Positions 277 to 43,939 of a stretch of 43,939 nt of DNA are shown here, one piece after another. The first letter of the stretch is position 1. The number at the start of each line of letters is the position of its first letter. This DNA comes from Hamadaea sp. (GTDB taxonomy: Bacteria > Actinomycetota > Actinomycetes > Mycobacteriales > Micromonosporaceae). The notes under the pieces are model-generated. The model saw only the letters and a list, made by a program, of their open reading frames with translations. It did not search any database and was not told the origin of the DNA. A program made the translations under genes and the position numbers. The stretch is from positions 1 to 43,939 of the forward strand of contig JABFYB010000474.1 of the NCBI GenBank assembly GCA_013361475.1. The letters run 5' to 3'.

Positions 277-1098
277 ATGCCCGAGACCACCGAGAACTAC
301 GACCTCATCCAGACCGCGAAGGACTCCGTCGGAGCCCAGAAGCTCGAGCACGGCATCTACTACGACGGCGTCGCCCACCAGCTCATCGACGTCCGCGACC
401 AGCTCCGCGAGGACGCCGAGGAGCGCCCCGCCCGCAAGACCGGCTCCTACACCGTCACCGACGTCGCCTCCTTCGTCGACTACCTCGGCAAGCACGGCCT
501 CCCCGAGACCGAGCTCTGGGCCAACGTCAACGCCGGCACCGTCCGCGCCGTCATCAACGCGCACCTCGGCACCATCGAAGGCGGCGAAGCCGACGCCGGC
601 CACCAGGACCACACCGCCACCCTTCAGCTCGCCACCACCGACGACTGGAAGCACTGGACGGGTAAGGACGGCGACCTGCAGCCGCAGCTCGCGTTCGCCG
701 AGTTCATCGAGGACCACCTCCCGAACTTCGTCAGCCCCTCCGCCGCCGACATGCTCGAGCTCGCCCAGACCTTCCAGGCCAAGACCAAGGTCGACTTCCA
801 GTCCAGCCACCGCACCAAGTCCGGCGAGACCCAGATCGCCTACGTCGAGGACACCACCGCGTCGGCCGGCAAGAAGGGCGACCTCACGATCCCGGACACC
901 TTCGACCTAGCGCTCCAGCCGTTCGAGAACGGCCCCACGTACCGGGTCCAGGCGCGGTTCCGCTACCGCATCAACGGCGGCCAGCTCTACCTCGGCTACC
1001 GCCTCACCCGCCCGAAGGACGTCCGCAAGACCGCCTTCGACGACGTCGTCGGCCAGATCGCCAAGGACGCCGACGTCACCATCTGGGCCACCAGCTGA
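277..1098 (+). CDS. DUF2303 (YfdQ-like) family protein
   Basis: The 273-residue product matches the DUF2303/YfdQ family pattern as I know it: a DDWKHWTGKDG segment followed by a FAEFIEDHLPNF block in the middle and a C-terminal beta-rich part ending in FRYRINGGQLYLGYRL. The family is common in phages and prophages beside recombination genes (RecT, exonucleases); its biochemical role is not established. ATG at 277 follows the previous stop by three bases. A hairpin-rich non-coding stretch begins at its stop codon. Confidence 0.85.
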   Translation: MPETTENYDLIQTAKDSVGAQKLEHGIYYDGVAHQLIDVRDQLREDAEERPARKTGSYTVTDVASFVDYLGKHGLPETELWANVNAGTVRAVINAHLGTIEGGEADAGHQDHTATLQLATTDDWKHWTGKDGDLQPQLAFAEFIEDHLPNFVSPSAADMLELAQTFQAKTKVDFQSSHRTKSGETQIAYVEDTTASAGKKGDLTIPDTFDLALQPFENGPTYRVQARFRYRINGGQLYLGYRLTRPKDVRKTAFDDVVGQIAKDADVTIWATS

Positions 1099-1166
1099 CC
1101 GGTCCCCTGCCGGTCACGCTCCGCACCCCCTGGCGGAGAGCCCGCGGCGCCAATCCCCTGTGGCGC
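1096..1166 (+). repeat. Three tandem hairpins with near-identical C-rich loops
   Basis: Three stem-loops follow one another in the 113-nt gap. Stem 1 is 1096-1102/1110-1116 (TGACCGG/CCGGTCA), loop TCCCCTG. Stem 2 is 1119-1124/1133-1138 (CTCCGC/GCGGAG), loop ACCCCCTG. Stem 3 is 1147-1152/1161-1166 (GCGCCA/TGGCGC), loop ATCCCCTG. Stems differ in sequence but pair perfectly, while the loops are almost constant. That pattern suggests the loop is recognised by something, as RNA or as single-stranded DNA. Hairpin 1 includes the stop codon of the DUF2303 gene, so a terminator or processing role is also possible. Confidence 0.75.
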
Positions 1167-1211
1167 GCGGCGGGCACCCCCCAACTTCACGAACGACACG
1201 AGAGGCCACCG

Positions 1212-1529
1212 GTGAGCGACCCACAGCTCTTCGACGCCACACCCTTCGAAGTGGCGCCGGCACCCACAGCAGACATGGGTCACGACGCGCAACGCACCGC
1301 CCGCCGACGCGCGCTCCTCGAGCAGGGCATCCACCCCATCACCAAGCGCCCCGTCGCCCCCGAGGCCGGCACCTGCGGCGACTGCGTGCACCTGCTGACG
1401 AAGGACCGCTACCCGCACCGGTGGTTCAAGTGCGACCTCACCCTCGACCGGCTCGCCCAGGGCCCAGACGTCCGCAAGTCGTACCCCGCCTGCGCCGCCT
1501 TCGAGCCAGCCCAGCGAGGTGACGCGTGA
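1212..1529 (+). CDS. Small Cys-containing hypothetical protein
   Basis: The 105-residue product starts at GTG 1212, preceded by GAGAGG about 8 bases upstream. The C-terminal half has CGDC (TCGDCVHLL), then KC (WFKCDL), then a final Cys (YPACAAFEP). This C-x2-C...C...C layout suggests a small metal-binding fold, as in many short actinophage proteins. The gene overlaps the helicase gene by a GTGA junction, so the two are probably translationally coupled. It could be a replication accessory factor, but only position supports that. Family not recognised. Confidence 0.8.
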   Translation: MSDPQLFDATPFEVAPAPTADMGHDAQRTARRRALLEQGIHPITKRPVAPEAGTCGDCVHLLTKDRYPHRWFKCDLTLDRLAQGPDVRKSYPACAAFEPAQRGDA

Positions 1530-3046
1530 CCGACCGACCACGCGACAGGCACCTCGCCCCCGTCCCCGACGACGGACCCGGCTGGGAGCCACCGTTCGAC
1601 CGCGCCGCCGAAGAAGCCACCATCGCCGCCGCCCTCACCAACCCCGCCAGCCTCGACGACATCACCCAAACCGTCACCAGCAGCGACTTCTACGACCACG
1701 CCCACGAACTCATCTACGACGCCATCGTCGCCCTCTACTCCCGCACCCGCCCCGTCGACAAGATCACCGTCGCCAACCAGCTCGGCAAAGACCTCGACCG
1801 CGCCCGCGGCCGCACCTACCTCGAACACCTCACCACCCTCGGCATCGGCATCATCGACGGCACCTGGCACGCCCAGATCGTCGCCGAACACGCCGCCCTC
1901 CGCCGCCTCCAGCAGCACCACATCCGCGCCCTCGCCGACATCGAGAACCGCGGCGACACCCCCGCCCTCGAGCTCTACCAGCGCGCCGCCGACCAGCTCG
2001 AACAGATCCCCCGCGGCGTCCCAGGCGTCGAAACCACCACCGTCAACACCTGGGCACCCGTCGACCTCGCTGCCATCATCACCGGCGACCTCACCGGCCC
2101 CGCCGCCACCCTCTGCACCCGCCGCGACGGCAAGCAGCTGCTCTACCCCTACGCCGTCCACTCCGTCTCCGGAGAACCCGGATCAGGCAAGACCTGGATG
2201 GCCCTCGTCGCCATCGCCCAAGAGATCACCGCCGGCCATGACGCCCTCATGCTCGACTTCGAAGACCGACCACAGACCATCGTCGCCCGCCTCCTCGGCC
2301 TCGGCGCCACCCCCGAACAGATCCTCACCCACCTGCGCTACATCCGCCCCGAAGTCGCCCTCACCCCAGCCCACCGCACCCTCCTCGAGCAGGCCGCCAC
2401 CGGCACCACCATCGCCGTCATCGACGGCATCACCGAAGCCATGACCCTCCACGGCCTCTCCCTCATGGACAACGAAGACGTCGCCCGCTGGCTCGCCCTC
2501 GTCCCCCGCGTCCTCGCCGACCTGGGCCCGGCCGTCCTCCAGATCGACCACGTCGTCAAGAACGCCGACAACCGCGGCCGCTACGCCATCGGCGGCCAGC
2601 ACAAGCTCGCCGGCATCACCGGCGTCGCCTACAAGATGCTCACCATCAAGTCCTTCGGCCAAGGCGCCAAAGGCCACGCCAAGCTCGTCGTCGACAAGGA
2701 CAAGCACGGCGACGTCGGCCCCAACGGCATCACCGCCGCCGACCTCCACCTCGACGCCACCGACCCGGGCGGCACCCTCTACGCCTGGCTCTCGGCCCCC
2801 GAGCAGTCCATCGACGAGGAAGGCCACTTCCGGCCCACCGTCCTCATGGAACGCGTCTCCCAGTTCCTCCTCGTCACCGTCGGACCCCAGTCCCTCGCCG
2901 CCATCCAGCGCGGCGTGAAGGGCAAGGCCGAGTCCATCGCCGAGGCCGTCGACGCACTCGTCCGAGAGGGCTTCGTCCGGGTCGAACCGGGCCCCCGCGG
3001 GTCGCAGATGCACCACCTTCTCGAGGCCTTCGAGGGCGACCGATGA
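1526..3046 (+). CDS. Replicative helicase: DnaB N-terminal domain joined to RepA-like ATPase
   Basis: The 506-residue protein has a DnaB N-terminal-like helical domain at about 25-130 (EEATIAAALTNPASLDD...FYDHAHELIYDAI). A RecA-fold ATPase of the RepA/AAA_25 type follows, with Walker A GEPGSGKT at 216-223, an acidic LMLDFEDRP strand just after it, and a later IAVIDGITEAM strand as a Walker B candidate. The last ~90 residues (FLLVTVGPQSLAAIQRGVKG...) look like a winged helix. Normal DnaB carries a DnaB_C ATPase, so this arrangement is a hybrid. Role inferred: 5'-3' unwinding at the phage origin, which may lie just downstream. GTG start in a GTGA overlap. Confidence 0.88.
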   Translation: MTDRPRDRHLAPVPDDGPGWEPPFDRAAEEATIAAALTNPASLDDITQTVTSSDFYDHAHELIYDAIVALYSRTRPVDKITVANQLGKDLDRARGRTYLEHLTTLGIGIIDGTWHAQIVAEHAALRRLQQHHIRALADIENRGDTPALELYQRAADQLEQIPRGVPGVETTTVNTWAPVDLAAIITGDLTGPAATLCTRRDGKQLLYPYAVHSVSGEPGSGKTWMALVAIAQEITAGHDALMLDFEDRPQTIVARLLGLGATPEQILTHLRYIRPEVALTPAHRTLLEQAATGTTIAVIDGITEAMTLHGLSLMDNEDVARWLALVPRVLADLGPAVLQIDHVVKNADNRGRYAIGGQHKLAGITGVAYKMLTIKSFGQGAKGHAKLVVDKDKHGDVGPNGITAADLHLDATDPGGTLYAWLSAPEQSIDEEGHFRPTVLMERVSQFLLVTVGPQSLAAIQRGVKGKAESIAEAVDALVREGFVRVEPGPRGSQMHHLLEAFEGDR

Positions 3047-4979: not shown

Positions 4980-5167
4980 CCCAGAAGCGGGCGTGCGCCA
5001 AGATCCGGTACCGCGACCGGATCTCGGCGCTGCTCGCGCTGTCGAAGGCCCGAGCCCAGGACAAGTCGTGGCGACCGAAGCTCGAGGCTCGCGCGTACCG
5101 GTGCCCTGACTGCGCCGGCTGGCACCTCACCTCGCTGCAGAAGGGCCGGCGTCGGCGTGGCGCTTGA
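4976..5167 (+). CDS. Small basic zinc-finger-like protein
   Basis: The 63-residue protein starts at ATG 4976 in an ATGA overlap. It reads MTQKRACAKIRYRDRISALL, then a basic helix, then YRCPDCAGWHLTS and a Lys/Arg-rich tail (QKGRRRRGA). CPDC followed by WHLTS is a recurrent short actinophage motif, and the net charge is strongly positive, suggesting nucleic-acid binding. It is the last gene of the early operon; hairpins follow within 40 bases. Exact role unknown. Confidence 0.8.
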   Translation: MTQKRACAKIRYRDRISALLALSKARAQDKSWRPKLEARAYRCPDCAGWHLTSLQKGRRRRGA

Positions 5168-5202
5168 CCCACCTGTCACTTTTGTCGCATCATGACCTCG
5201 TC

Positions 5203-12182: not shown

Positions 12183-13187
12183 ATGCCCGTGACCCTCGCC
12201 CAGGCGAAGCTCAACGCGACCGACGACGTCGACGTCCAGATCATCGACGAGTTCCAGAAGAGCAACGACGTGCTCAACCGGATCACGTTCGACGACGTGG
12301 TCTCCGGCGCCGGCAACGGCGCCACCCTCACCTACGGCTACACCCGCCAGATCACGCAGCGAGGCGCCGCCTTCCGCGCGATCAACAGCGAGTACACGCC
12401 GACCGAGGCGACGAAGCAGCGCTACACCGTCGACCTCAAGCCCCTCGGTGGGTCCTTCCAGATCGACCGCGTCCTCAACCGCGTCGCCCAGGCCGCGGAG
12501 ACCGCGTTCCAGATGCGCGAGCTGCTCAAGGGCACCTCGGCGAAGTTCAACGACGCGTTCTTCAACGGCGACACCGCCGTGGACGCCAACGGCTTCGACG
12601 GCCTCAACAAGCTGCTCACCGGCACGACCACGGAGTACCTGCCGCTGAACAACGGCGTCGCCACCGGCTACGTCGACTGGACCGCCGTCAACTCCCAGTC
12701 GGCCGCCTTCCAGGCGATCGCGCACATCGACGCGTGGCTTGGCAGCCTCGACGGCCGCCCCGACGCGATCTACCTGCCCCGCAAGGCGAAGGCGCTCTTC
12801 AAGGTCATCGCCTCCTACGCCGGGCAGTACTCCGTCGACCGCAACGAGATCGGGCAGGTCGTCGACACCTACAACGGCATCCCGCTGATCGACCCGGGCA
12901 CCAAGGACGGCTCGGCGACCGACGTCCTGGCGGTCGCCTCCCGCGATACCGACGGCGCCGGCGCCGGCGGCACCATCACGGGTCTGGCCGACCTGTACGC
13001 CGTCCGCTTCGGCCTCGACGGCGTGCACGGCGTCTCGATGGCCGGCGGCCCGCTGGTGTCCAACTGGATGCCCGACTTCAGCACGGCCGGTGCCGTGAAG
13101 ACCGGTGAGGCCGAGCTCGGACCCGCAGCGGTCGTCGTGAAGAAGACGAAGAGCGCGGCCGTGCTGCGCAACGTCAAGGTCGCCTGA
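12183..13187 (+). CDS. Major capsid protein (HK97 fold)
   Basis: The 334-residue protein lies between scaffold and connectors with a strong AGGAG site. It has the segments expected of an HK97-type capsid: an N-terminal arm, a beta-hairpin region (LTYGYTRQITQRGAAFRAIN), a spine-helix region (AAETAFQMRELLKGTSAKFN), and a late PLIDPGTKDGSATDVLAV and SNWMPDFSTAGAVKTGEAEL stretch. Codon use is very strongly C-ended, as expected of a highly expressed gene, and a powerful terminator follows. Confidence 0.93.
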   Translation: MPVTLAQAKLNATDDVDVQIIDEFQKSNDVLNRITFDDVVSGAGNGATLTYGYTRQITQRGAAFRAINSEYTPTEATKQRYTVDLKPLGGSFQIDRVLNRVAQAAETAFQMRELLKGTSAKFNDAFFNGDTAVDANGFDGLNKLLTGTTTEYLPLNNGVATGYVDWTAVNSQSAAFQAIAHIDAWLGSLDGRPDAIYLPRKAKALFKVIASYAGQYSVDRNEIGQVVDTYNGIPLIDPGTKDGSATDVLAVASRDTDGAGAGGTITGLADLYAVRFGLDGVHGVSMAGGPLVSNWMPDFSTAGAVKTGEAELGPAAVVVKKTKSAAVLRNVKVA

Positions 13188-13202
13188 CCTGACCCCTGAG
13201 CG

Positions 13203-13234
13203 AGGCGGGGCCGGAGAGACCTCCGGCCCCGCCT
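13203..13234 (+). terminator. Strong hairpin after major capsid gene
   Basis: AGGCGGGGCCGGA (13203-13215) and TCCGGCCCCGCCT (13222-13234) form a perfect 13-bp stem with a 6-nt loop, 16 bases after the capsid stop. TGACCTGACCCCT at 13186-13198 just before it recurs before the terminator of the major tail gene. It probably trims or partly stops transcription to raise capsid mRNA over distal genes. Confidence 0.85.
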
Positions 13235-13266
13235 CCCCCGGAACCACAACGCCCAGGGAGGGCACC

Positions 13267-17384: not shown

Positions 17385-17391
17385 CCTGACC

Positions 17392-17427
17392 CCTCGGGGC
17401 GCGCCCTGGCTGGAGCGCGCCCCGAGG
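17392..17427 (+). terminator. Strong hairpin after major tail gene
   Basis: CCTCGGGGCGCGC (17392-17404) and GCGCGCCCCGAGG (17415-17427) make a perfect 13-bp stem with a 10-nt loop, 7 bases after the stop. It is preceded by TGACCTGACCCCT (17382-17394), the same 13 bases found at the capsid gene end. It probably raises major tail mRNA relative to distal genes. Confidence 0.85.
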
Positions 17428-18034: not shown

Positions 18035-18144
18035 CCTGGTGGGAGTTCCGGCGACGCGTCGTCGGACTCATGTCCACCGAGAGCCGCCTCTCGCGCCATT
18101 TCGCTCGCGACCTCGAGCCCGACACACCTGAGGGGGATGCATGA
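17851..18144 (+). CDS. Frameshifted extension of tail chaperone (GT, -1 frame)
   Basis: This frame is -1 to the 17462 gene and has no ATG/GTG start in the overlap, so it must be reached by frameshifting. The exact entry is uncertain; about 17851 is where it begins to look like protein: DLARYGRGECRDGIYEWYEL, then TVTVDDLLAQEELLILDFQQ and LTWWEFRRRVVGLMS, resembling the gp15/T part of chaperones. It ends in an ATGA overlap with the tape measure. No classic slippery heptamer is visible. Confidence 0.7.
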   Translation, partial: HDDDLARYGRGECRDGIYEWYELPEEGDGPTVTVDDLLAQEELLILDFQQVYGIALERCDLTWWEFRRRVVGLMSTESRLSRHFARDLEPDTPEGDA

Positions 18145-43727: not shown

Positions 43728-43939
43728 CCGCACAGCACCAGCACGACGACGACCCACACATCCGGCCCTTCGCCGACTTCCTCCTCGAGCACGGCCGCGG
43801 CCGCACTCACGACGAGCTCGGCGAGGCCCTGCACACGCTCATCGCCCGGGTGAAGGACACCGGCAAGAAGGGCGCGATCACCCTCACCATCACCGTCGAG
43901 CCGATGAAGAAGGCCGAGGACCGCATGGTCGTCGTCGGC
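43724..43939 (+). CDS. Hypothetical early protein, N-terminal part (gene continues at base 1)
   Basis: ATG 43724 in an ATGA overlap starts a 133-residue gene that runs off the right end and continues at 1-273. The N-terminus reads MTAQHQHDDDPHIRPFADFL then LEHGRGRTHDELGEALHTLI, a helical, charged domain before the beta-prone KGAITLTITVEP. The last 87 bases duplicate the window start. No family recognised; it is the direct upstream partner of the DUF2303 gene. Confidence 0.82.
   Translation, partial: MTAQHQHDDDPHIRPFADFLLEHGRGRTHDELGEALHTLIARVKDTGKKGAITLTITVEPMKKAEDRMVVVG

Follow-up and report, generated by a model that had tools for sequence, protein, structure and literature searches.

We have found three tandem hairpins with differing stems and near-identical CCCCTG loops in an actinobacterial temperate phage, where they begin on the stop codon of a DUF2303 gene. 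Many related phages have a gene-end hairpin at the same place, and this array is most probably an unusual form of it in three parts. More specifically, we see an even chance that the array is a lineage-specific, three-part RNA element of the gene end, namely a U-less partial terminator or a stabiliser of the 3' end.

The window, i.e., the whole stretch of 43,939 bases analysed here, is a contig of a 7.1 Mb draft actinobacterial assembly. Its two ends (1-87 and 43853-43939) are identical over 87 bases, and the contig is therefore probably the complete genome of a circular or circularly permuted phage. The phage is a temperate one, with terminase, portal, head proteins, tape measure, endolysin, and integrase all encoded, and the same contig also encodes a RecT-like protein, a resolvase, a DUF2303 protein, and a DnaB-like helicase. 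Within a run of genes on the same strand, the array is located in the 113 bases that separate the DUF2303 gene from a gene of 105 amino acids, the latter of which overlaps the helicase gene. The features concerned are as follows.

277-1098, plus strand: DUF2303 gene, encoding a phage protein of 273 amino acids and of unknown function (Pfam PF10065, E 1e-53; phrog_210).
1096-1116, plus strand: hairpin 1, with the 7-bp stem TGACCGG/CCGGTCA and the loop TCCCCTG (located by script; -12.0 kcal/mol as RNA).
1119-1138, plus strand: hairpin 2, with the 6-bp stem CTCCGC/GCGGAG and the loop ACCCCCTG (located by script; -9.5 kcal/mol as RNA).
1140-1175, plus strand: hairpin 3 with its outer stem; the apical 6-bp stem GCGCCA/TGGCGC and the loop ATCCCCTG occupy 1147-1166 (script and RNA fold).
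1200-1205, plus strand: GAGAGG, read from the sequence as the likely ribosome-binding site of the 105-aa gene, outside the hairpins.
1212-1529, plus strand: 105-aa gene (starting MSDPQLFD) without a family match; a homologous start is found in the same place in L001, the nearest relative.
1526-3046, plus strand: DnaB-like helicase gene (Pfam PF00772, E 9e-19; phrog_19).

Three tandem stem-loops with perfect stems of 7, 6, and 6 bp had been described in an earlier note on this DNA, and our script indeed located them at 1096-1116, 1119-1138, and 1147-1166. What the description had missed is the outer stem (GCCCGC/GCGGGC), by which hairpin 3 is extended into a larger bulged hairpin at 1140-1175 and forms its tip. 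The stop codon TGA of the DUF2303 gene (1096-1098) is contained in hairpin 1, so that the array starts on the stop codon. When the plus strand was folded as RNA, all three hairpins were formed as drawn, except that a U-G wobble pair closes the stem of hairpin 1 and reduces its loop to CCCCU. The runs of C in the loops of hairpins 1, 2, and 3 are C4, C5, and C4, respectively. Owing to the high GC content of the region, its overall RNA folding energy stands out only modestly (z = -2.2). CCCCTG occurs 20 times on the plus strand of the window, and the three occurrences that lie in stems of at least 5 bp are exactly those of the array.

The plus strand folds into the same three hairpins also as DNA, with z = -3.6 and no shuffle equally stable, which bears on a reading of the array as a single-strand DNA element. 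Hairpins extruded close to the helicase gene, on the lagging strand, would then act as a start for primase or replication, and every loop does contain CTG, with the DnaB-like helicase gene 350 bp downstream. The complementary-strand origin of phage G4 likewise has three adjacent hairpins, and CTG is the start for primase there; its loops are not constant, however, and the array belongs to a dsDNA phage. Neither iterons nor other origin-like repeats were found nearby, the cumulative GC skew, after detrending, changes direction near 17.8 kb and 37.4 kb but not at the array, and the position of the array tracks the stop codon as gene-end hairpins do. We consider this reading very unlikely.

The near-identity of the three loops, also pointed out earlier, exceeds what chance would give. 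When 1096-1211 was shuffled 20,000 times with its dinucleotides kept, three disjoint hairpins of the array's size appeared once and a shared loop 6-mer never; in 856 kb of GC-rich related sequence, furthermore, four distinct adjacent hairpin triples were found, none with a shared loop. The probability of three background loops having a common 6-mer is about 9e-6, a figure which, like the other chance figures, is uncorrected for the choice of this cluster by eye out of a large scan. On the coding strand of these phages, C-rich loops as such are nothing special: of the 141 strong hairpins counted in related loci, the coding-strand loop has C4 or longer in 25 and G4 in 4, and shuffling of the letters within loops gives an expectation of about 21 for C4, versus the 25 observed. 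The C bias of the loops follows composition, and the unusual part is the shared exact 6-mer only. It might nonetheless be a coincidence that gene-end hairpins with such ordinary loops share CCCCTG, given how common C-rich coding-strand loops are, the selection of one striking cluster from so large a scan, and the lack of conservation of the array. Against this speak the rarity of three such hairpins in the shuffles and of 6-mer sharing among three loops, and we regard coincidence as unlikely while still giving it some weight. Kissing between the loops is ruled out by the sequence, as CCCCTG is not self-complementary.

A perfect hairpin of 8-17 bp follows the DUF2303 gene in about 16 of the approximately 35 loci examined, starting mostly 6-26 nt past the stop codon, and every one of these hairpins differs in sequence. 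The single hairpins are, for example, 8 bp long in L001, 10 in L002, 14 in L003, 11 in L005, 17 in L015, 15 in L076, and 13 in L082. The window itself suggests a general tendency of this phage to carry hairpins at gene ends. Very strong U-less hairpins are present at 13202-13235 (15 bp), just past the major head gene, which ends at 13187, and at 17392-17427 (13 bp), just past an ORF ending at 17389.

In Bridgettevirus-type Arthrobacter phages (L246 to L249), a strong hairpin past DUF2303 is followed by a tRNA-like element; in the phage GlobiWarming (L246), the two are located at about 5113-5200, and in L248, both sit after the gene that follows DUF2303. The element (GGGCCTG ... GGTTCGAATCCGGGCAGGCCCACCA) has an acceptor stem, a T-arm, and CCA, and contains a conserved CCCCCTG; ARAGORN detected no tRNA in the four phages, and Rfam gave no match to the element in L246, the member searched. 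Also, a strong hairpin (GCCACACCCGGGC...GCCCGGGTGTGGC) lies just 5' of a related helicase gene in L261 (7787-7832) and encloses GCGC-ACCCCCT-GCGC, a single C-rich inner loop resembling that of hairpin 2 in the window.

No homologue of the array, in turn, was found in any of the sequences searched, namely the DUF2303 loci, genomes of the class, viral contigs, and phages. The relatives of DUF2303 comprised 72 loci from viral contigs, 27 loci from genomes, further genome loci, and phage records, and two adjacent CCCCTG hairpins were seen in none of the DUF2303 loci read. Loss of the stems or loops in related phages of unchanged gene order had been named earlier as a refutation of the loop-recognition proposal, and for the array L001 is such a case: with 63% identity in DUF2303 and the same next gene, it is without the array, and its gene-end spacer has one 8-bp hairpin (GTGCCGGC...GCCGGCAC) unrelated in sequence to those of the window. 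BLASTN of 1040-1230 against phages found no related array. Among the matches listed from two scans of viral contigs for a three-loop CCCCTG pattern, and from another for two copies of ACCCCCTG, there was no triple array with differing stems; the listed matches that passed a hairpin filter were same-stem tandem repeats or unrelated pairs. A candidate array in L270 was rejected, as it is inside a coding frame. The exact core of unit 1 had 46 matches, by estimate no more than expected by chance and none with an array beside it, and that of unit 3 had zero; the units are therefore no visible mobile repeat.

We also searched with a covariance model of the units, as had been proposed earlier. This model, R1, is a descriptor only: one of its four rows is the real array, with loop 1 and the spacers slightly edited, and the other three are invented, with identical loops and random stems. 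R1 scored 65 bits on the window, and in its own genome and 395 genomes of the class this locus was the sole match, while 42 related loci gave matches at chance level only (E 0.27 and above). With no homologue found, covariation has nothing to count; the differing stems of the three units are, furthermore, all within one genome and hence provide no evolutionary covariation. The earlier proposal, in which loops on compensating stems are under selection for recognition, is not shown.

As a gene-end element, the array would form the transcribed 3' end of the DUF2303 message, and this end is predicted to fold into three stacked hairpins beginning on the stop codon. We infer that the hairpins would act as a U-less partial terminator and/or as a barrier to 3' exonucleases, by which the end of the DUF2303 message may gain in abundance or stability over the downstream replication genes. 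Loops rich in C would agree with the C-over-G bias of the coding strand, and for their near-identity, local copying of a loop and an added binding role are both candidate origins.

Consistent with a gene-end element, hairpin 1 starts on the stop codon and hairpin 2 ends 40 bp past it, where a GC-rich hairpin is counted as gene-end up to 50 bp. No T-run or terminator-like U-tract was found after the array (ACCCCCCAAC comes after hairpin 3), and no promoter-like site was seen near it. Gene-end hairpins without a U-tract have been reported in mycobacteria and Streptomyces (PMC8269248; PMC12288462), and U-less, I-shaped terminators are located within 50 bp of stop codons in mycobacteria and other GC-rich bacteria (PMC12288462; PMC8269248). 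The array is similar to these terminators of GC-rich actinobacteria in being GC-rich, within 50 bp of the stop codon, without a U-run, and on the coding strand; an I-shaped terminator is one long hairpin, however, whereas the array has three short tandem hairpins with near-identical loops, and termination by it is putative. U-less termination is itself disputed, because the title of Czyz 2014 (cited in PMC12288462) reports that the mycobacterial polymerase needs a U-tract at intrinsic terminators. Several points also speak against a gene-end element here: two of the three stems are just 6-7 bp and weaker than the single hairpins of the relatives; neither termination nor stabilisation alone calls for a constant loop, and it is highly improbable that the loops have CCCCTG in common by chance; and a full terminator in this same-strand run would cut off the helicase gene.

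The main mechanistic rival to the gene-end element is a 6C-like RNA. The small RNA 6C is composed of two hairpins whose C-rich loops pair with G-rich 5' leaders (PMC10470900; PMC8628891), and the array, either freed or within the 3' end of the message, might similarly pair its loops with G-rich ribosome-binding sites of the host or the phage. Indeed, 6C was found in 15 of 21 genomes around the host, the consensus of its second loop (UCCCCCCcugG) is similar to UCCCCUG, and the start of the tape-measure gene has AGGGGGAU at 18131, a match to CCCCCU of loop 2 and AUCCCC of loop 3. This start region reads GAGGGGGATGCATG at 18131-18141 and contains 6-nt stretches complementary to loops 2 and 3. A single G-rich site at a gene start is expected anyway in a GC-rich genome, however, and the full complement CAGGGG has three sites on the plus strand, all of them away from the starts of recognised phage genes; among phage gene starts, we found no convincing target for the C-rich loops, the tape-measure site being a partial complement. 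The array and 6C (also B11; Rfam RF01066) have in common tandem C-rich-loop hairpins in actinobacteria, but 6C has two hairpins of conserved sequence with stems of 12-13 bp, whereas the three stems of the array are half as long and lie in the gene-end spacer of a phage. No match was obtained from Rfam at the gathering threshold, nor, on 1050-1260, from Rfam with its 6C model even at E 10. No promoter was seen for a separate RNA, and the array is not conserved in relatives. Classification as 6C by its loops (two hairpins, each loop with six or more C) was rejected, the array having three hairpins with C4, C5, and C4. A 6C-like RNA is unlikely to be the explanation.

A further possibility is an array for protein binding, in which an RNA-binding protein of the phage or host recognises the constant loop on the three hairpins, as CsrA does on CsrB-type sponges. 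CsrB/RsmZ-type sponge RNAs have tandem hairpins with differing stems and a repeated identical loop with a GGA core; the geometry of unrelated tandem stems with a constant loop is thus shared with the array, and the loop sharing exceeds chance. The plus-strand loop of the array is C-rich instead, with GGA in two of the three loops of the minus strand only. A CsrA-like reading of that strand was rejected, since one of its loops lacks GGA and no minus-strand promoter was seen. In addition, no candidate binding protein was identified, no related phage has a homologous array with conserved loops, and the U-G pair closing the loop of hairpin 1 in RNA makes the three loops differ in shape. We regard a protein-binding array as quite improbable. 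Recognition of the loops as such is possible, with no support from relatives. It is likewise unlikely that the phage encodes a counterpart of 6C or CsrB, in which tandem hairpins would serve as a decoy or regulator in an actinobacterial host, their three constant C-rich loops capturing either a loop-binding protein or G-rich ribosome-binding sites.

If the loops are recognised, an actinophage would have in this array a compact, three-copy regulatory RNA, which would bear on how RNAs with C-rich loops work in actinobacteria that are without Hfq. If they are not, the comparison still shows that a hairpin past DUF2303 recurs in related phages with complete turnover of its sequence.
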